A stretch of 64,000 nucleotides of DNA from positions 62,001 to 126,000 of the forward strand of contig JAHCAR010000004.1 of the NCBI GenBank assembly GCA_019634795.1, written 5' to 3'. Shown here piece by piece: positions 19,656-49,158 of this stretch (position 1 is the first letter of the stretch; each line of letters starts with the position of its first letter). The position numbers were made by a program, and so were the translations under genes. Source of the DNA: Dokdonella sp. (GTDB lineage Bacteria; Pseudomonadota; Gammaproteobacteria; Xanthomonadales; Rhodanobacteraceae). The notes beneath the pieces are model-generated. The model made no database searches, was not told the origin of the DNA, and was given only the letters and a program-made list of their open reading frames with translations.

Positions 19656-20132
19656 TGGCCAGAACATGTCGATGGCGCCGCCGATGCGATGGTTGCCGTA
19701 GCCGACCTTGTCGAGCCAGCCCTTCATGCGCCCGGCACCGATGCGCCGGGCCATCTCCTGATAGAACCAGACCACCGAGTACTTCATGCCGCTGGCCAGG
19801 CTGTGGTCGCGATTCCAGATCGGGTACTGGCGTTCCTTGCCGTCCCAGCGGATCACCTCGAACTCGTCCTTGATCGCATCGCTGTCGAGGGCGGCCATCG
19901 CATTGAAGACCTTGAAGGTCGAAGCAGGCGAGTAGGCGTGCCCGGCGCGTTCGCGGTCGTGGAACAACCAGCGCTGACCGGATTCGTCGAAGATGACGGC
20001 GGTCCCTCTGAGGCCGGCTTCGCGGAATGTGCGATTCCAGTCCTGCTGCTCCTGCCCGACCGGCGTGTCGGCACTTGCCTGCATCGCAAGCGTCGCGAAA
20101 AGCACCCACCCAAGCCATCGTATGGTCGCCAC
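19644..20132 (-). pseudogene. Class D (OXA-type) beta-lactamase, truncated by the structured element
   Basis: Starts at 20132 with a signal peptide ('WVLFATLAMQASA'). It carries the class D active-site Ser-x-x-Lys as 'PASTFKVFNA', the Ser-x-Val motif in 'YSVVWFYQE' and 'YGN', then '…GGAIDMFW'. At that point native sequence ends, and the terminal repeat of the adjoining element adds four residues and a TGA. Only about 162 of roughly 260 residues remain, and the Lys-Thr-Gly motif is missing, so the enzyme should be inactive. The missing 3' part was not found on the other side of the element. It is divergent from soeA. Confidence 0.88.
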
Positions 20133-20283
20133 CGGGCATCTCCATGTGAAATGAAAGGAGGCGCAGATTCGAGTCGAAACAAGGATTTGCGCGGCCCGAA
20201 TTCTGACTTTTCCGGGGCAGTGCCCCCGTGCCCGGATTTAACCATTACCATCACTCATTCCCGAACAGCGCACGCCTGCGACC

Positions 20284-23217
20284 ATGCCGCATGCCTCACT
20301 GGCCCTGAATACGCCCACCGCTGACGAGGTCAAGACGACCACGTGCTACATGTGCGCGTGCCGCTGCGGCATCCGCGTGCATCTCAAGGATGGCCGCGTC
20401 CGCTACATCGACGGCAATCCGAAGCATCCGGTCAATCGCGGCGTCATCTGCGCCAAGGGCTCTTCCGGCATCAAGCAGCACTATTCGCCGGCGCGCCTGT
20501 CGAAGCCGCTGCTGCGGATCGGCGAGCGCGGGGCCGGCGAGTTCCGCGAGATCGAATGGGACGAGGCGCTCGCGCTGGCCGCCCAATGGCTCGGCGACAT
20601 CCGCGAGCGCAACCCCGACGAACTGGCCTTCTTCACCGGGCGCGACCAATCGCAGGCCCTGACCGGCTGGTGGGCGCAGCAGTTCGGCACGATCAACTAC
20701 GCCGCCCACGGCGGGTTCTGCTCGGTCAACATGGCCGCCGCCGGCATGTACAGCTTCGGCGGCAGCTTCTGGGAGTTCGGCGAACCGGACTGGGAGCTGA
20801 CCCGCTACCTGATGCTCTGGGGTGTCGCCGAAGACCACGATTCGAATCCGATCAAGCTCGGCCTCGGCAAGCTCAAGGCGCGCGGCGCGAAGATCGTCGC
20901 GATCAATCCGGTGCGCACCGGCTACGGTGCGATCGCCGACGAATGGGTGCCGATCAATCCGGGCACCGACGGCCTGCTCGCCGGTGCCCTGATCCACGAA
21001 CTGCTGCAGGCCGACCGCATCGATTTCGAGTATCTCGTGCGCTACACCAATGCACATCATCTGGTCATCCGCGACCCGGGCGCGGCCGACGATGGCCTGA
21101 TTGCGCGCGACGCGGAGGGCAATGCCTTGTGTGCGGCTCGCTCAAACCTCCGTCATCCCGGCGAAGGCCGGGATCCAGCGACTTCACGCTGCGCGGAACA
21201 GGCACCGGATCCCCGCCCTCGCGCGGATGACGGTGAGGAACATGAAGTCGTTCGGGCGAGTGAGGTCGGGATCGCGCCGATGGTGGTCGGCGAGTACACC
21301 CTGCCCGACGGCCGCACGGCAGTGCCGTCGTTCCAGTTGCTGGCCGAACGCTTTCTTGCCGATGACTATGCGCCGGCCACAGTCAGCGAGCGCTGCGGGG
21401 TCAGTGTCGAAACGATCCGGCGCCTGGCCCGGGAACTGGCCGAAGCCGCCTTCGACCAGGCCATCAGCGTCGACCAGCCCTGGACCGACGCCCACGGCCG
21501 CCACCACGAGACCATGCTCGGACGTCCGGTCGCGATGCATGCAATGCGCGGCATCTCGGCGCACGCCAACGGATTCCATACCTGCCGGACCCTGCATGTC
21601 CTGCAGATGCTGCTCGGCGCGATCGACACGCCTGGCAGCTTCCGCTACCAGCCGCCGTATCCGAAGCCGGCGCCGCCGCCGAACCGCCCTGGCAAGTCGC
21701 GCAAGGACAATGGCGCGCTCGATGGCGGGCCGCTCGGCTACGTGCAGTCGCCCGGCGACCTGCTGGTCGACGCCGAAGGCAGGCCGCGCCGCCTCGACAA
21801 GGCCTATTCCTGGGAGCATCCGCTGGCCGCGCACGGTCTCATGCATTCGGTGATCCGCAACGCCTGGGCCGGCGACCCGTACCGCATCGACACGCTGTTC
21901 ATGTTCATGGCCAACATGGGCTGGAACTCGTCGATGAACACCAGCGAGACGCGGGCCATGCTCTGCGATCGCGATGCCGCGAGTGGCGAATACCGCATCC
22001 CGCACATCATCTACTCGGATGCCTACCTGTCGGAAACGGTCGCCTTCGCCGACCTCGTCCTGCCCGACACGACCTATCTCGAGCGCCACGACTGCATCAG
22101 CATGCTCGACCGCCCGATCTCGGATGCCGATTGCGCGGCCGATGCGATCCGCCAGCCGGTCGTGCCGCCGGATCGCGACGTGCGGCCGTTCCAGGACGTG
22201 CTGATCGAAATCGGCGCCCGGATCGGCCTGCCCGGCCTGGTCAACGAGGACGGCACGGCGAAATACCCAAGCGGCTTCGCCCAGTACATGGTCGAGCACG
22301 AGCGCGCGCCGGGCGTCGGCATGCTCGCCGGCTGGCGCGGCGAAGACGGCACGAAGAGCGGTTTCGGCGAACCGAATCCCGATCAGATCCGGCGCTATGT
22401 CGAGCACGGCTGCGTCTGGGAAGCGCGCGTCCCCGACTCGGCGCGCTACTACAAGATGGCCAATCGCGACTACCTGGCCTGGGCCCGTTCGCTCGGCTTC
22501 CTCGGCTCGACCGAGCCGATCGTTCTGCAGCTGTATTGCGAGACGCTGCAGTGCTTCCGCCTCGCCGCGCAGGGCCATGGCCCGCAGCAACCGCCCGAAA
22601 GCGAGCGCGAACGGGTCCGGCGCTATTTCGATCCGCTGCCGTTCTGGTACGAAAAAGTATCTTCACGCGGATCCGTCCGCGAAGCGCAGAACGGAACCGC
22701 AGATCCCGGTGCTGATCTCCGGGAAAGCGCTCGATATCCCCTCTCGGCCATCACCCAGCGGCCGATGTTCATGTACCACAGCTGGGGCTCGCAGAATGCC
22801 TGGCTGCGCCAGATCACGGCGCGCAACTATCTTTACCTCAACCCGCAGACTGCAGCGGCGCATGGGGTCGCCGACGGCGACTGGATCTGGCTGGCCGCGC
22901 CGCTCGGGCGCATCCGCGTGCAGGCGAAGCTGCACGAGGCGACGGCGCCTGGCACGCTGTGGACCTGGAATGCGATCGGCAAGCGCAAGGGTGCCTGGAA
23001 ACTCGATGCCGATGCACCGGAGAGTCGCGACGGCTTCCTGCTCAACCACCTGATCGACGAACGCCTGCCTGCGGGCGCCGAGGGGCATGCCTACGCCAAC
23101 GCCGATCCGGTCACCGGCCAGGCCGCGTGGTTCGACCTGCGCGTACGCATTGAACGCGATCCCGAGCCACATCAGGATGGGCACCGCATCGAACTCCACC
23201 CTGCGAGGACCGCCTGA
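20284..23217 (+). CDS. soeA: Sulfite dehydrogenase catalytic subunit SoeA (molybdopterin, [4Fe-4S])
   Basis: A 977-residue cytoplasmic bis-MGD molybdoenzyme (no Tat signal) predicted to oxidise sulfite to sulfate and pass electrons to SoeB. The N-terminal cluster site is 'CYMCACRCG' with the fourth Cys in 'GVICAKG'. The putative Mo ligand Cys sits in 'AAHGGFCSVNMAAAG'. Downstream blocks 'AEDHDSNPIK', 'MHAMRGISAHANGF', 'LPDTTYLERHDCISMLDRP', 'QRPMFMYHSWGSQNAWLRQI' and 'WTWNAIGKRKGAW' follow the SoeA pattern. Two segments look foreign: about residues 289-320, encoded by a palindromic repeat (21150-21236), and about 793-815 before 'YPLSAITQRPM'. The frame is open throughout. The stop overlaps the permease start by one base. 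Confidence 0.9.
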   Translation: MPHASLALNTPTADEVKTTTCYMCACRCGIRVHLKDGRVRYIDGNPKHPVNRGVICAKGSSGIKQHYSPARLSKPLLRIGERGAGEFREIEWDEALALAAQWLGDIRERNPDELAFFTGRDQSQALTGWWAQQFGTINYAAHGGFCSVNMAAAGMYSFGGSFWEFGEPDWELTRYLMLWGVAEDHDSNPIKLGLGKLKARGAKIVAINPVRTGYGAIADEWVPINPGTDGLLAGALIHELLQADRIDFEYLVRYTNAHHLVIRDPGAADDGLIARDAEGNALCAARSNLRHPGEGRDPATSRCAEQAPDPRPRADDGEEHEVVRASEVGIAPMVVGEYTLPDGRTAVPSFQLLAERFLADDYAPATVSERCGVSVETIRRLARELAEAAFDQAISVDQPWTDAHGRHHETMLGRPVAMHAMRGISAHANGFHTCRTLHVLQMLLGAIDTPGSFRYQPPYPKPAPPPNRPGKSRKDNGALDGGPLGYVQSPGDLLVDAEGRPRRLDKAYSWEHPLAAHGLMHSVIRNAWAGDPYRIDTLFMFMANMGWNSSMNTSETRAMLCDRDAASGEYRIPHIIYSDAYLSETVAFADLVLPDTTYLERHDCISMLDRPISDADCAADAIRQPVVPPDRDVRPFQDVLIEIGARIGLPGLVNEDGTAKYPSGFAQYMVEHERAPGVGMLAGWRGEDGTKSGFGEPNPDQIRRYVEHGCVWEARVPDSARYYKMANRDYLAWARSLGFLGSTEPIVLQLYCETLQCFRLAAQGHGPQQPPESERERVRRYFDPLPFWYEKVSSRGSVREAQNGTADPGADLRESARYPLSAITQRPMFMYHSWGSQNAWLRQITARNYLYLNPQTAAAHGVADGDWIWLAAPLGRIRVQAKLHEATAPGTLWTWNAIGKRKGAWKLDADAPESRDGFLLNHLIDERLPAGAEGHAYANADPVTGQAAWFDLRVRIERDPEPHQDGHRIELHPARTA
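21150..21236. repeat. Palindromic intergenic-type repeat embedded in soeA
   Basis: The left half CCGTCATCCCGGCGAAGGCC… (21150-21178) and the right half ending …GCGCGGATGACGG (21206-21236) are the two inverted ends of a widespread proteobacterial palindrome. In another frame it reads 'VIPAKAGIQ', a common mis-annotation signature. Here it is read in the soeA frame without a stop, as 'RHPGEGRDPATS…RPRADDG'. A fragment of the same type lies at about 41851-41878 behind rpmG. Confidence 0.85.
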
Positions 23218-24980
23218 TGACCGCCCCGCAATGGATGACCCTGGTTCTCGTCGTCGGCGCGATAGCGCTGTTCGCCAGCGAGAAGGTGCGCATCGACATC
23301 GTCGCCCTGATCGTGCTCGTGCTGCTCGTCGTGCTGCAGCTGATCACGCCGGCCGAGGCCCTGGCCGGGTTCAGCAACGAAGCGACGATCACGGTCGCCG
23401 CGATGTTCGCCTTGAGCCTCGGCATCGAGCGTTCGGGTGCGCTCGATCCGCTCGGCCGGCTGCTCTCGCGGATCCGCCGGCCCTGGTTGCTGACCCTGTG
23501 CCTGATGCTGGCAATCGCGCCGATGGGCGCCTTCGTCAAGAACATCGCCCTCGTCGCGACCTTCCTGCCGCTGGCGCTTCGGGTCTGCGCGAATACCGGC
23601 ACCTCGCCGGCACGCGTGCTGCTGCCGATGGCCTACGCGGCGCAGATGGGCGGCGTCTGCACCCTGATCGGCACCTCGTCCAACCTGCTCGCCGACAGCC
23701 TCGCCCAGCAGCACGGGCTTTCCGGTTTCGGCGTCTTCGAATTCACCCGCCTCGGCGCCCTGCTCGCCGTGGTCGGCATCACCTACCTGATGCTGGTCGG
23801 ACGCTGGCTGCTGCCGAAGGAGATCTCGCCGGTCGCCGCCGCGGAAACCGATATCGGCAAGTACGTGACCGAGCTGAAGGTCACCGCCGATTCGCCGCTG
23901 GTCGGCCAGACCATCGCCGACGCCAAGCTCGGCGACAAGTACGGCATCTACCCCCTCGAACTGCTGCGCGGCGATCGCCACCTGTGGTCGCCACGTTCGC
24001 AGCAGCTCGAGGTCGACGACGTGCTGCTGGTCCGCGGCGACTGGGACAAGATCGAGGATTTCCGCAAGCGCGCCGTGCTCGAAATCGATCCGGAGAACCG
24101 CTACGGCCACGACAAGAGCAGCGCGCGCACCCTGGTCGAGGTCATGGTCAAGCCGGCGACGACGATCGAAGGCAGCTCGCTCGAGGAACTCGACTTCAAG
24201 AGCAACCACGATGCGATCGCCCTGGCCATCCACCAGCGCGGACGCATCCTGCGCGACAAGCTCAAGGATGTGCGCCTGACTGCCGGCGATGTGCTCCTGC
24301 TGCTGGTCAGCGACGAGGCCGCGACCGCGCTGCGCAGCGACGAGCGCTTCGTCGTGCTGAGCGAGCGCGAGGATACGCGGCGGACCTCGCGGCGGGCGAT
24401 CGCCGCGGTGCTGATCATGGCTTCGGTGGTCGTCATCTCGGGCCTGCACTGGCTGCCGATCCCGGTTGCGGCGATCGCCGGCGCCGTGGCCATGGCGGTC
24501 GCCGGATGTTACGGACGCAAGGACCTCTACCAGGGCATCGATTGGAAGATCATCGTCCTGCTCGCGGCGATCCTGCCGCTCGGCACGGCGATCGAAAACA
24601 GCGGCCTGTCGAACACCCTGGTCCAGGCCGGCATGGGCATCGTCGGTGAGCACGGCCCGCTGGCGGCCCTGCTCATGGTCTATCTGCTCACCGCACTGCT
24701 GACCGAATTGATGGGCCACAACCCCTCGGTCGTGCTGATGGTCGGCATCGCGATTTCGGTGGCGCATACGGTCGGTGCCGATCCGCGCCCGTTCGTGGTC
24801 GCCGTCGCCTTCGCCGCGGCGACCTCGTTCGCGACCCCGGTCGGCTATCCGACCAATACGATGGTCTACTACGCCGGCGGCTACCGGTTCATGGATTTCA
24901 TGCGCGTCGGCATACCGCTGATCGCGATCTTCTGCGCCCTGTCGATGTACCTGATTCCGCTGTTCTGGCCGCTGCAATGA
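23217..24980 (+). CDS. SLC13-type anion permease with two RCK_C (TrkA-C) domains
   Basis: A 587-residue inner-membrane transporter of the DASS/SAC1-like group. Hydrophobic helices (about 5-195) carry the clamshell motif 'TLIGTSSNLL'. Two soluble TrkA-C/RCK_C domains follow (about 215-295 and 300-375), then a second helix block with the repeat motif 'TPVGYPTNTMVY'. Relatives move sulfate or other divalent anions. The start overlaps the soeA stop by one base, so translation is coupled. Inferred role: handling sulfate or sulfite around the sulfite dehydrogenase. The direction of transport and the substrate are not shown by sequence. Confidence 0.88.
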   Translation: MTAPQWMTLVLVVGAIALFASEKVRIDIVALIVLVLLVVLQLITPAEALAGFSNEATITVAAMFALSLGIERSGALDPLGRLLSRIRRPWLLTLCLMLAIAPMGAFVKNIALVATFLPLALRVCANTGTSPARVLLPMAYAAQMGGVCTLIGTSSNLLADSLAQQHGLSGFGVFEFTRLGALLAVVGITYLMLVGRWLLPKEISPVAAAETDIGKYVTELKVTADSPLVGQTIADAKLGDKYGIYPLELLRGDRHLWSPRSQQLEVDDVLLVRGDWDKIEDFRKRAVLEIDPENRYGHDKSSARTLVEVMVKPATTIEGSSLEELDFKSNHDAIALAIHQRGRILRDKLKDVRLTAGDVLLLLVSDEAATALRSDERFVVLSEREDTRRTSRRAIAAVLIMASVVVISGLHWLPIPVAAIAGAVAMAVAGCYGRKDLYQGIDWKIIVLLAAILPLGTAIENSGLSNTLVQAGMGIVGEHGPLAALLMVYLLTALLTELMGHNPSVVLMVGIAISVAHTVGADPRPFVVAVAFAAATSFATPVGYPTNTMVYYAGGYRFMDFMRVGIPLIAIFCALSMYLIPLFWPLQ

Positions 24981-25080
24981 ACCCGGCGATCTCGCTTCTC
25001 CGACCGACCTGCCTTGTCGAGCCGATGAATCTGTCAGCTGCCGCGCGGAATCCGGAACGCAGCTGCGAGTATCGCCGCGC

Positions 25081-26085
25081 ATGATCCGACGCATCCTTTC
25101 GCGCCTTCGAGACGAGCCGCGCCCGCTGGACAGCGAGGCCATCGTATGGGCCTATCGACTCTTCCTCGACCGCGAACCCGAAAATCTCCAATCGGTCAGG
25201 GAGATGGCGGCTGCGCTCAGGACGTCGGCGGAGATTCGCCGCTGCTTCATGGCGTCGGAGGAATTCTCCCTTCACCCGGACACCCACCGGCGTCCCTCGC
25301 TCATCGGAAACGAAAAGCCCATGTGGATCGACGAGGTCGAGGACCCGACCGAAATCGCGCGATTGCTCGACCATATCGCCAGAACCTGGACAGGTTTCGG
25401 AGATTCGGAACCGCACTATTCCGTGATCACCGATCCCAGGTTCAAACCCGATCAGGTCGCGCAACATATCGAGGACTTCAGTGCCAGCGGCCGGGACGGC
25501 GTGGAACGGCTCGATGCCGCTCTGGCGCGCACGGGTACCACACTTGGCTCTGATGCGACCTGCCTCGAACTGGGCTGTGGGGTCGGACGCGTCACAGCGT
25601 GGCTCGCGCGCCGATGTGCGCAGGTGATCGCCACCGATATTTCGCAGAGTCACCTGGCCCTGGCCCGGCAGCACTTGAATGGCGAGGGCTCCAGCAATGT
25701 CCAATTCCACCAACTGAACCGAGTAGAGTCGCTCGACACGCTTCCGGCATTCGATTTGTTTTTTTCCGTTATCGTGCTGCAACATAATCCACCGCCGATC
25801 GTCCGGGCGATCCTCGACCGCGTTTTCGCCCGCCTCAGGCCAGGCGGCTTCGCCTATTTCCAGGTGCCGACCTTCCGGGTCGGCTATGAGTTTCGGATGG
25901 AACAGTACCTGCGCGAGGAATTCGGAAAGAAGAAGATGGAGATGCACGTTGTGCCACAGGCGACAATCATGCGCGTGGCCGCGCAACACGGGCTCGAGCT
26001 GCTCGAGGTGATCGAGGACTCTTACACCGGAATGCGACCGGGCGAAGTGTCGAACACTTTTCTTTTCAGAAAGCGGAATTCATGA
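25081..26085 (+). CDS. Class I SAM-dependent methyltransferase with DUF4214-like N-terminus, inside the soe locus
   Basis: A 334-residue protein. The N-terminal ~60 residues ('AIVWAYRLFLDREPENLQSV') resemble a DUF4214 domain, seen in surface-glycan and S-layer proteins. The rest is a Rossmann methyltransferase with motif I 'CLELGCGVGRVTAWLARR', 'VIATDISQSHL' and 'FDLFFSVIVLQH', ending in 'NTFLFRKR'. Base use is somewhat AT-richer than the neighbours (for example a run of T around 25757). The gap from the permease is 100 bases, while its stop overlaps soeB by ATGA. It has no known link to sulfite oxidation and is probably an acquired gene lodged in the operon. Confidence 0.82.
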   Translation: MIRRILSRLRDEPRPLDSEAIVWAYRLFLDREPENLQSVREMAAALRTSAEIRRCFMASEEFSLHPDTHRRPSLIGNEKPMWIDEVEDPTEIARLLDHIARTWTGFGDSEPHYSVITDPRFKPDQVAQHIEDFSASGRDGVERLDAALARTGTTLGSDATCLELGCGVGRVTAWLARRCAQVIATDISQSHLALARQHLNGEGSSNVQFHQLNRVESLDTLPAFDLFFSVIVLQHNPPPIVRAILDRVFARLRPGGFAYFQVPTFRVGYEFRMEQYLREEFGKKKMEMHVVPQATIMRVAAQHGLELLEVIEDSYTGMRPGEVSNTFLFRKRNS

Positions 26086-26912
26086 CCTCGCTTCCCCCTC
26101 GCGCCCGCCGAAAGCTCGGCCTCGTCATCGACCTCGACACCTGCGTCGGCTGCCATGCCTGCGCGGTCGCCTGCAAGGAATGGAACGACGGCGGCGCATT
26201 CGGGCCGTTGCCTGATGCGGATCCGTACGGAGCCGAGCCGAATGGCGTCTGGTTCAATCGGGTGCATAGCTACGAAGTGGCGGGAATGGGGAATGGGGAA
26301 TGGGGAATCGGTAGAAGCCAAGCCCAAAGCACGGCTCCCTGCTCTTCAACCATTTCCGATTCTCCATTCCCCATTCCCGCTTCACCCCAGACAGTCCACT
26401 TCCCCCGCTCGTGCCTGCACTGCGAGACGCCGGCCTGCGTGACAGTGTGTCCGACCGGGGCCAGCTACAAGCGCGCCGAGGACGGCATCGTGCTGGTCGA
26501 CGAGGACAAGTGCATCGGCTGCCAGTTGTGCGCCTGGGCCTGTCCGTACGGTGCGCGCGAGTTCAGCGCCAGGCGCGGGGTCATGCAGAAGTGCACGCTC
26601 TGCGTCGACCGCATCTACAACGAGACGCTCGACGAAGCGGATCGCCAGCCGGCCTGCGTGATGGCCTGCCCGACCCGGGCGCGGCATTTCGGCGATCTCG
26701 GCGACGCCGACTCCGATGTCTCGAAGCTGGTCGCCGAGCGCGACGGCTACGCGCTGATGCCCGAGCTCGGCTACGCACCGGTCAACCGCTACCTGCCCCC
26801 GCGACCGCGTCGTGATGGGACGACGGCGGCGAAGGCACCCGCGGCCGAACCGATCGACACCGTGCAGATGTCGCCGCTGCTGCGCTGGGTCGACCGTGTC
26901 CTTTCGCGCTGA
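26082..26912 (+). CDS. soeB: Sulfite dehydrogenase iron-sulfur subunit SoeB
   Basis: A 276-residue electron-transfer subunit with four [4Fe-4S] sites: 'CVGCHACAVACKEW', 'CLHCETPACVTVCPTG', 'CIGCQLCAWACPYG' and 'CTLCVDR…CVMACP'. The sequence from 'RKLGLVIDLDTCVGCHAC' through 'NRVHSYEV' and again from 'TVHFPRSCLHC' onward follows SoeB. Between these two blocks lie about 35 residues encoded by an ATTCCC palindromic repeat (26281-26380), making the protein longer than the usual ~240. The first and last cysteine sets are undisturbed. It overlaps the methyltransferase by 4 bases; soeC follows after 12 bases. Confidence 0.92.
   Translation: MTSLPPRARRKLGLVIDLDTCVGCHACAVACKEWNDGGAFGPLPDADPYGAEPNGVWFNRVHSYEVAGMGNGEWGIGRSQAQSTAPCSSTISDSPFPIPASPQTVHFPRSCLHCETPACVTVCPTGASYKRAEDGIVLVDEDKCIGCQLCAWACPYGAREFSARRGVMQKCTLCVDRIYNETLDEADRQPACVMACPTRARHFGDLGDADSDVSKLVAERDGYALMPELGYAPVNRYLPPRPRRDGTTAAKAPAAEPIDTVQMSPLLRWVDRVLSR
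26281..26380. repeat. ATTCCC palindromic repeat inserted in frame in soeB
   Basis: The left arm of GGGAATG repeats (26281-26309) and the right arm of CATTCCC repeats (26358-26380) match the elements at 1293, 48256 and 48990. Here the element is translated as 'GMGNGEWGIG' on the left and 'DSPFPIPASP' on the right, with no stop in the soeB frame. Confidence 0.92.
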
Positions 26913-26924
26913 GACCAACTGACG

Positions 26925-27950
26925 ATGCGGCCGAGCTTCTCGATCATTTTCTTCACTGTCATGTCCGGGGCCGGGTATGGGCTTTGGATGATCGTCGGCG
27001 TCGCCCTGGCCTTGTTCTGGCCGGAGGTTTCGCCCGGCAAAGGCCTTACCCTGATGCGCTACCCTGGCCTTTACCTCTACGGGCTCGCAGCCGGATTCGT
27101 GCTCGTCAGCTCGGGACTGGTGTCATCACTCTGGCATCTCGGCAAACCCGCGCGCGCATGGCGGGCGTTTTCGCAGTGGCGCAGTTCGTGGCTTTCCCGC
27201 GAGGGTGTGGCCGCGCTTTTCACCTTCATTCCAGCAATCGGAATTGCCGTAATAGTGGCTCACGATGCATGGGTCATGCGCACCGTCGGGAACGAGTTCG
27301 TGATCGGCGGCACGTTCTGGTTCAGTACGACGGCATTTTCCATTCTCGGCATGCTGCTTGCGGTCGGCTCGATGCTGACCGTGTTCTGCACGGGCAATAT
27401 TTATGCCTGCCTGAAACCGGTGCGAGCCTGGCACAACCGCTACGTCGTCGCCGGCTATCTGCTGCTCGGCATCTACAGTGGTGGCCTGCTCGCATGGGCC
27501 CTGTGCAGCTTGCCCAATGGCCACATGCGCGGCATGCGCTGGCTGCTCGCCGGCATAGCCGTGGCCGCGCTGGCCGGGGCGTTGCTGAAACATTTTTACT
27601 GGCGCTTCATCGACCGCGAACCGGACGCGACCACTGGCGACGCCACGGGCCTGAAGTCCCTCGGCGTCGTGCGCTCGTTCGAACAGCCGCACACGGAAGA
27701 AAACTACCTGACCCACGAGATGGGATTCCGCATTGCCCGCAAGCACTCGCGCAAGCTGCGGCGGATTGCGCTCGTGGCCGGATTCCTTGTGCCCGCCGTG
27801 CTCGCCCTGCTGGCCTTGTTCGTTCCGGGCTCGTGGCGCGCCGGCGCCTGGATCGCCCTCGTGCCCGGCATGGCCGGCATCTTCGTCGAACGCTGGCTGT
27901 TCTTTGCTGAGGCCCGGCATACGGTCATGCTCTATTACGGCGCCCGCTAG
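26925..27950 (+). CDS. soeC: Sulfite dehydrogenase membrane anchor SoeC (DmsC/NrfD-like)
   Basis: A 341-residue inner-membrane anchor of the DmsC type with about eight hydrophobic helices, beginning 'FSIIFFTVMSGAGYGLWMIV'. It has the family's 'SSLWHLGKPARAWRAFSQWR' loop and 'SWLSREG'. It would pass electrons from SoeB to quinone. The soluble loop 'LTHEMGFRIARKHSRKLR' before the last helices is typical of SoeC. It begins 12 bases after soeB and ends the operon. There is no clear hairpin terminator before the DUF481 gene 150 bases on. Confidence 0.9.
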   Translation: MRPSFSIIFFTVMSGAGYGLWMIVGVALALFWPEVSPGKGLTLMRYPGLYLYGLAAGFVLVSSGLVSSLWHLGKPARAWRAFSQWRSSWLSREGVAALFTFIPAIGIAVIVAHDAWVMRTVGNEFVIGGTFWFSTTAFSILGMLLAVGSMLTVFCTGNIYACLKPVRAWHNRYVVAGYLLLGIYSGGLLAWALCSLPNGHMRGMRWLLAGIAVAALAGALLKHFYWRFIDREPDATTGDATGLKSLGVVRSFEQPHTEENYLTHEMGFRIARKHSRKLRRIALVAGFLVPAVLALLALFVPGSWRAGAWIALVPGMAGIFVERWLFFAEARHTVMLYYGAR

Positions 27951-28099
27951 CGCGGCTGCGGGCAGGCTGCAAACAATCGTTTCGGCTGCGACGCCCGCTG
28001 CCCTCGTTCACTTCGCATTCAATTCGGGCCGCTAGCATCCACGGCCATCGGGCCACTCCGGCACCGACGCCCATTCCCCAAGCAAGCAAGGTATCGAAG

Positions 28100-47440: not shown

Positions 47441-48253
47441 ATGCCCGAACTTCCCGAAGTCGAAACCACGCGGGTCGGTATCGCACCCCATCTGGTCGGC
47501 CGCCGCATCAAGGGCCTGGTGATCCGCCAGCCGCAACTGCGCTGGCCGATTCCGGCATCGCTGATCGAGACCCTGCCCGGACAGTCGATCACTGCGATCG
47601 AACGCCGGGCCAAATACCTGCTCGTGCACACCGATGCCGGCAGTGCCGTCCTCCACCTCGGCATGTCGGGCAGCCTGCGCGTGCTCGGCGAAAACACCGT
47701 GCCGGGCAAGCACGACCACTACGACTGGCAACTCGACTCCGGCCGCGTGCTGCGCTTCACCGATCCGCGCCGTTTCGGCAGCCTGCTCTGGCAACCGCCC
47801 GGCACCACCCACGAACTGCTGGCGCGGCTCGGACCCGAGCCGCTCGGCGACGCCTTCGACGGCGACATGCTCTGGCGCCTGGCCCAGGGCCGCTCGGCCC
47901 CGGTCAAGACCTTCATCATGGACCAGGCCGTCGTCGTCGGCGTCGGCAACATCTACGCGGCCGAGGCCCTGTTCGCCGCCGGCATCCATCCGCGCCGCCG
48001 GGCCGGCGCCGTCTCGCGCATGCGCTACGCAATGCTGGCCGATGCGATCAAACGCATCCTGCGCTACGCGATCGATCGCGGCGGCACCACCCTGCGCGAC
48101 TTCATCTCGCCCGACGGCGTACCGGGCTATTTCGAGCAGGAGCTGTTCGTCTACGGCCGCGCCGGCGAACCCTGCCGCAATTGCGGCACCCCGATCCGCT
48201 CGATCACACTCGGCCAGCGCTCGACGTTCTACTGTGCGCGGTGTCAGCACTGA
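47441..48253 (+). CDS. mutM: Formamidopyrimidine-DNA glycosylase MutM (Fpg)
   Basis: A 270-residue base-excision enzyme for oxidised purines such as 8-oxoguanine. The N-terminal '[14 protein letters not shown]' provides the catalytic Pro and Glu. 'AKYLLVHTD', '[11 protein letters not shown]', the H2TH region '[17 protein letters not shown]' and a complete zinc finger ('CRNCGTP…FYCARCQH') are present. It is the last gene after the ABC system and is followed at once by a palindromic repeat. Confidence 0.98.
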
Positions 48254-48255
48254 AA

Positions 48256-48365
48256 GCCGGGAATGGGGAATGGGGAATGGGGAATGGGGAATAGGTAAAG
48301 GCAAAGGCAAAGCGGATGTGCATTTCGCTCTTATCGATTCTCCATTTCCCATTCCCCATTCCCGC
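48256..48365. repeat. ATTCCC palindromic repeat between mutM and tdk
   Basis: Five GGGAATG units (48256-48292) face GATTCTCCATTTCCC…ATTCCCGC (48336-48365). It begins 3 bases after the mutM stop and its right end meets the tdk stop codon, so it fills the whole convergent gap and probably acts as the shared transcript end. Confidence 0.92.
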
Positions 48366-48989: not shown

Positions 48990-49158
48990 AAGCCGGGAAA
49001 CGGGAATGGGGAATGGAGAAACGATCCGAAGCAGGGGCGCGATTCTGTCACATCGATATCGATCGGCGTCTTCGCGCATGACGGATCGGTGCCGCACGGG
49101 CACAATTGCGGGTATCGGCTCGACCCATTCCCGATTCTCCATTCCCGATTCCCGGCTA
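48990..49158. repeat. ATTCCC palindromic repeat in the tdk-rep divergent promoter region
   Basis: The left arm 48990-49022 and right arm 49124-49158 carry the same heptamer-type repeats as the other copies. About 100 bases of unique sequence between them must contain the promoters of both tdk (minus) and rep (plus), so each transcript starts inside the element. The right arm ends 3 bases before the rep start codon. Confidence 0.88.

Follow-up and report, generated by a model that had tools for sequence, protein, structure and literature searches.

The stretch of DNA analysed here (the window, 64,000 nucleotides in its entirety) belongs to a draft genome of Dokdonella sp. (G000). On its plus strand a soeA-like gene (20284–23217), assigned to the molybdopterin subunit by Pfam matches to Molybdopterin, Molybdop_Fe4S4 and Molydop_binding, is followed by two ORFs (23217–24980 and 25081–26085), a soeB-like gene (26082–26912), and a soeC-like gene for a membrane anchor of the DmsC type (26925–27950; Pfam DmsC, 6.1e-12). 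The soeB-like ORF is stop-free throughout its 276 amino acids, and its product is recognized as a four-cluster [4Fe-4S] electron-transfer subunit from the ORF, Pfam (Fer4_11, 2.3e-24), NCBIfam and relatives in the PDB (2vpw_B and 4ydd_B); the named sequences that match the gene best come from a Lysobacteraceae MAG and from Dokdonella fugitiva. The best NCBIfam match, TIGR02951 (6.7e-41), falls below that model's cut-off, and none of the 25 matches listed reaches its own. Since the curated equivalog cut-off is unreached among these matches, the name soeB is used only as a label carried over from the first-pass annotation, and sulfite dehydrogenase activity is putative. As in SoeB and other iron-sulfur subunits of the DMSO-reductase family, four sets of [4Fe-4S] cysteines are present, with molybdopterin and DmsC-type subunits encoded close by. 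The 16 cysteines (residues 21, 24, 27, 31; 111, 114, 119, 123; 144, 147, 150, 154; 171, 174, 192, 196) are unchanged across 39 aligned sequences, so the view that all four cluster sites remain is well founded.

Inside this gene lies a palindrome of 99 bp (26281–26379, plus strand), defined by its sequence, its arms and its folding, in which a (GGGAATG)n array faces a (CATTCCC)n array in a hairpin layout. The G arm (26282–26309, plus strand) consists of three GGGAATG units, starting at 26282, 26289 and 26296, and one GGGAATC, followed by GGTAGAAGC; the C arm (26351–26378), read on the minus strand, consists of two GGGAATG units, GAGAATC and GGAAATG, with the reverse complement of GGGAATG at 26365 and 26372. 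The first-pass annotation had placed an element of about 100 bp in frame and without a stop within soeB, between the first and second ferredoxin blocks, and the ORF and the alignment agree on each point, the insert lying between cysteine blocks one and two. The element spans residues 67–100 and shares both end codons with its flanks. The estimate of about 35 added residues is somewhat too high: the loop as a whole, with 58 residues, exceeds the order's shortest loops (28–30 residues) by 28–30. A structure model of SoeB had a mean pLDDT of 60 and was set aside for judging loop exposure. As RNA the element forms a long hairpin of -67 kcal/mol (z -8.8, with 0 of 200 shuffles equally low), a motif search finds a G-quadruplex motif on its coding strand, and Rfam returned nothing at the gathering threshold for window positions 20000–28000.

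The soeB element belongs to a kind of repeat described in Xanthomonas (Rehm et al. 2015), in which two arrays of GGGANNN heptamers converge. Two or more tandem GGGANTN units stand at 26282–26309 and at 26351–26378, the two arrays converge on opposite strands, and in G000 the repeat is dispersed, high in copy number and mostly intergenic. GGGAATG occurs 23 times in the window, where 8.4 occurrences would be expected and none of 100 shuffles gives as many, and the 20-mer GGGAATGGGGAATGGGGAAT has 74 matches in the genome, overlapping within arrays, with 0 for its reversed control. Besides the soeB element the window holds three two-armed copies, located between genes or at a gene edge (1296–1386), just 3′ of an ORF that ends at 48253 (48259–48363), and ahead of a gene for a UvrD/Rep-type helicase (48995–49153). 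The claim that the element elsewhere in the window sits strictly between genes clearly holds for 48259–48363. It also holds for the other two if start codons are placed downstream of the elements; in the ORFs beside them the first TTG falls within the element or ahead of it, and next to 48995–49153 the helicase domain starts at residue 61 of its ORF. The claim does not extend to the genome, in which lpxB and hrpA hold one copy each. In the fetched stretches, two-armed copies have arms of about four GGGANNN units each, share by eye an inner GGNNRARGC-like step, and enclose site-specific spacers, about 20 to 310 bases long.

Of copies within coding sequences, the count of which was proposed earlier as a check, three were confirmed, in soeB, lpxB and hrpA, among 38 two-armed pairs listed in G000 (two overlapping duplicates included). 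Some dozen other ORFs that run through elements were covered by a domain scan, and most were rejected as domain-free or as having domains that start after the element; one patatin-like ORF (L138), with a single array outside the domains, is a candidate.

Heptamers occupy the same soeB loop in a number of relatives, written in different units. GGGAAT units are found in G003, G004, G007 and G034, GGGATT units in G002 and G009, and a mixture of the two in Dokdonella fugitiva (two AAT and one ATT in the G arm); G032 has GGGACT, L042 GGGAGA and L046 GGGACC. Eroded heptamers remain in G005 and in Mizugakiibacter (L057, whose loop is identical to that of G010), and the insert is absent from the fetched Lysobacter, Tahibacter, Rudaea and Rhizobiales sequences. 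The comparison of SoeB among relatives suggested by the first-pass annotation, which looked for presence or absence of the insert, was answered in part: some relatives lack it, and the carriers hold the same kind of palindrome in the same or in other units. Misassembly, or a split gene mistaken for a continuous one, might be suspected in a 3.87-Mb draft of 51 contigs that is 85% complete, but stop-free frames with heptamer inserts at the same position in other genomes make it highly improbable.

A tree was built from SoeB minus the loop together with SoeC (63 rows, ten of them without SoeC) as a quick build with no bootstrap. It places the carriers in one clade (SH-aLRT 99) in which 13 of 17 rows have the insert; half an element is also present in one distant row, L051. 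The history of the insert takes a minimum of 4 changes over all rows and, with L051 omitted, a minimum of 3, which includes a separate gain in G009; one gain with three losses takes 4 steps. Because the insertion site is identical among carriers, a single gain in the ancestor of the Dokdonella-centred clade is nevertheless preferred over a second gain in G009 and would be the simplest account of these sequences, even though it is one step over the minimum.

Heptamers in soeB go together with heptamers in the rest of the genome. Counted as arrays of 2.5 units, G000 holds mostly GGGAATG (84) and G002 mostly GGGATTS (177), G010 holds GGGACTC (26) and GGGAGAC (21), and G032 holds GGGAATC (37) and GGGACTC (34). 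In G001, G006, G008 and G058 there are zero arrays for five tested units, and in G064 (Tahibacter) zero for three; the soeB insert is absent from these genomes too. Among the genomes with any tested array, which are related and so non-independent, 14 of 15 have soeB heptamers (eroded in G005 and G010, half in G063), the exception being G022; two of the five units were tested in G024 and three in G060–G064. In G058 the reversed GGGACTC control itself matched 5 + 13 times, owing to AGGGCTC-type heptamer arrays, a unit of similar style. Gene-level unit class correlates with the class that prevails genome-wide (Spearman 0.61, p 0.007, n=18, non-independent), and concordance of unit class among soeB, lpxB and hrpA within a genome gave p=0.053.

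Such observations would suit a mobile, MITE-like element that repeatedly enters the same protein loops with the genome's current unit, old copies being replaced whole. Differing units at one site in relatives, the tracking of genome heptamer state by soeB, the class correlation and the separate G009 gain in the shortest history all speak for it. The explanation requires repeated hits on one codon region, however, and the one family of mobilisers that was sought, the Y1 transposase PF01797, is present in the heptamer-free (as tested) genomes G001, G006, G008 and G058 and in G024 (two units tested), and is missing from the heptamer-bearing G005, G022 and G061. A Y1/RAYT transposase was accordingly rejected as mobiliser, its distribution not following that of the heptamers.

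In G000 both lpxB (TIGR00215, 359.8 bits against a cut-off of 190.25) and hrpA (TIGR01967, 1469.3 bits against 722.75) hold in-frame heptamer palindromes, at loops common to relatives among which the units vary. Counting G000, heptamers are found in 8 of the 14 lpxB loops read (eroded in G005, one arm in G010, partial in G061) and in 7 of the 13 hrpA loops read (eroded in G005; traces in G009 were counted as without). Text patterns left unread the lpxB loops of G032 and G060 and the hrpA loops of G001, G006, G032, G061 and G062, and the lpxB search gave no match in G008 or G062. The lpxB loop of G004 has GGGACG-like units. At L130:2046 the mechanical lpxB frame starts within an upstream heptamer element; either the N-terminus may come from the repeat, or translation may truly start further on.

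The loops of the three genes fold strongly in G000 (soeB z -6.2, lpxB z -6.0, hrpA z -8.6). This strong folding, retained despite differing units, and the co-variation of the arms are what would be expected if hairpin or G-quadruplex potential acted in the soeB, lpxB and hrpA messages, through pausing or mRNA stability, and were kept by selection. Against this, the element is missing or eroded in soeB of G001, G005, G006, G008 and G010, and the G-quadruplex motif is inconsistent in strand, being found among 14 soeB loops on one strand, on both or on neither (neither in 3 of the 14). Matching arms are seen as well in the G002 elements described below, most of which are intergenic, so that pairing needs no gene-specific selection. 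A role in the messages is therefore quite unlikely.

The differences in unit are best seen in the comparison of G000 with its sister genome G002. Elements of G000 were matched to sampled G002 stretches by both flanks; sites were chosen by GGGAATG in G000 and by array presence in G002, among the places listed, which puts the rate of empty sites outside the scope of the comparison. There are 27 matched sites, and at 21 of them the element is two-armed in both genomes. At 11 of these 21, soeB, lpxB and hrpA included, the majority unit of both arms is AAT in G000 but ATT in G002; the other 10 have AAT in both genomes, and none is mixed. Flanks are conserved at both kinds of site, with a median identity of 92.1% where the class differs and 91.1% where it is alike (83.7% at soeB). 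At L203 (G002:C38:86800-90700) one C arm holds 16 GGGAAT and 3 GGGATT units against about 4 in G000, an expansion that is confined to one arm and mixed in class. At L120:4155-4543 the heptamer arms in G000 are separated by about 295 additional bases bounded by inverted ends (GGGAGGCTCTGAACAAGTGGC...GCCACTTGTTCAGAGCCTCCC); the matched G002 site lacks them, which makes a filled/empty pair for another repeat.

In G002, both arms belong to a single class in all 45 two-armed elements sampled (independent arms would give 23.4), and only 5 of 104 arrays there mix classes (82 expected); the agreement in 35 of 35 G000 elements carries no information, since almost every unit there is AAT. For 18 gene-borne elements with clear arms, a set outside which the window's soeB element falls through the arm cut-off, pairing is 0.835 within elements against 0.757 across them (0 of 5000 permutations), and tests gene by gene gave p values of 0.014, 0.044 and 0.028.

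Spacers are less well kept where the class differs (median identity 0.56 against 0.69 at alike sites; z 1.0–5.5 against 2.0–14.5, p=0.0014), yet they still resemble each other somewhat more than spacers of non-orthologous copies do (p=0.0013). That most are unrecognisable at the differing sites is compatible with whole-element replacement and counts for the MITE-like element. Site L127 counts against it, since both arms there differ in class and the spacer is clearly kept (local z 11.4), as do the spacers of non-orthologous copies, which share only short stretches: comparing 79 spacers all-against-all for donors gave, outside orthologous pairs, only matches of 13–35 bases, most at arm edges. 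Target-site duplications are none evident in the soeB loops, which are too variable for the ends of the element to be placed. On these grounds, and since the carriers form one clade, recent transposition was rejected as the main reading, and repeated entry of a mobile element is possible but not probable. The earlier statement that the element moves or spreads likewise finds little footing, as the same loop is occupied in 13 of the 17 clade rows, spacers are unshared beyond short stretches, and no strain-level presence or absence was seen.

It is fairly likely, instead, that a heptamer pair entered a permissive soeB loop long ago, most simply once, and was inherited in frame while its arrays were rewritten in place, the peptide probably being just tolerated. 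The sequences themselves show the in-frame insert, its site common to relatives, the unit class that varies among them, the matching arms and the conserved flanks; the single entry, the way of rewriting and the lack of function are inferred from these. Because seven is not a multiple of three, an intact GGGAATG array yields one and the same cycle of seven residues whatever the frame, GNGEWGM from one strand and HSPFPIP from the other; being stop-free on both strands, it is unusually harmless within genes. (GGGAATA units, common in other copies, contain TAG.) Slippage of units would keep each array uniform, copying between arms by way of the hairpin would keep the arms complementary, and the unit class may now and then be altered through conversion by other arrays. 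Local rewriting of this kind, by slippage and hairpin-templated copying, appears to be the most economical mechanism.

Besides the mostly unlike spacers at differing sites and the extra step on the tree, several observations count against this account of a single entry followed by local rewriting. Each of the 11 differences is between AAT and ATT; slippage without bias should not be so restricted, and the pattern suggests that other arrays are sometimes donors. Some arrays are not uniform (soeB of D. fugitiva, lpxB of G002 and G005), the two arms of the G003 lpxB element are unlike each other, in G004 and G007 soeB has GGGAAT although GGGATT is commoner genome-wide, and agreement in class among the three genes of a genome reaches only p=0.053. 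Inversion of the spacer, expected of template switching, was not seen, no differing site having a clearly better reverse-complement match. A dedicated process, such as targeted conversion or templated repeat synthesis, that actively brings dispersed palindromes, also those within coding sequence, into line with a shifting genome 'dialect' of GGGANNN is unlikely; were it true, a genome-wide short DNA motif would dictate part of the sequence of unrelated proteins.

Protein loops also hold palindromes of other families. In the window an 84-bp palindromic repeat (CCGTCATCCCGGCGAAGG...GGATGACGG) lies in frame in soeA (21150–21233, plus strand) and encodes ...LRHPGEGRDPA...; of 43 sources tried, 16 gave a soeA loop that could be read, and 5 of these loops (the window, L046, L057, L076 and L081) have, by eye, palindromic inserts, of several families. 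The hrpA loop of G008 (L179), a genome from which the tested heptamers are absent, has a long in-frame GGGGTCAGAGTCAC.../...GTGACTCTGACCCCC palindrome. Certain loops thus gather palindromes from more than one family, as would be expected if the heptamer peptide were tolerated and not put to use, and the soeB loop looks permissive rather than domesticated, the term applied to it earlier; nothing indicates a function of the peptide, whose sequence turns over between sister genomes.

A mostly intergenic class of repeat therefore lives inside conserved enzymes across several genera, and GNGEWGM, HSPFPIP and RHPGEGRDP in proteins can be products of DNA repeats, not protein signals. How dispersed bacterial repeats stay alike, by copying, conversion or hairpin-templated correction, is an old question, made directly testable by the G000/G002 pair, in which many palindromes differ on both arms between like flanks.

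Among known systems, REP sequences are dispersed bacterial palindromes that are not known to contain tandem heptamers and are associated with RAYT transposases; the elements described here consist of tandem heptamers, and presence of the Y1 transposase does not follow them. Rickettsia palindromic elements, of about 150 bp and about ten sequence families, are found in frame within unrelated genes (Ogata 2000, 2002, via PMC10969869). Judged by its open frame, the soeB element would likewise be a palindromic repeat in frame within a conserved gene, and the parallel that the first-pass annotation drew with these tolerated inserts is sound in principle; here, however, the arms alone are shared, built from heptamer units around site-specific spacers. 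Long inverted repeats also occur within translated genes of Nematomorpha mitochondria (PMC6649704), where both arms encode conserved protein, whereas the present palindrome forms an extra loop. Template switching between inverted repeats equalises the two arms, coding DNA included (PMC8604942), and in making arms alike it resembles what is seen here, but alone it leaves the same class difference at many loci unexplained, and its other mark, the inverted spacer, was not seen here. The closest relatives are the GGGNATC and GGGAATC heptamers of Xanthomonas, which form convergent pairs and are 89–93% intergenic, with 11% and 7% intragenic in the sense of at least partly overlapping genes (Rehm et al. 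2015, PMC4692102). The accessible part of that paper holds no description of a conserved in-frame protein insert, and a literature search covering few subscription papers found no heptamer palindrome conserved inside proteins of this group. In contrast to the Xanthomonas repeats, those described here lie within conserved proteins, in loops common to relatives, and from one sister genome to the next the two arms change unit class jointly. What is new is thus the occurrence of Rehm-type heptamer pairs inside conserved proteins, with a unit that differs on both arms from one sister genome to the other.
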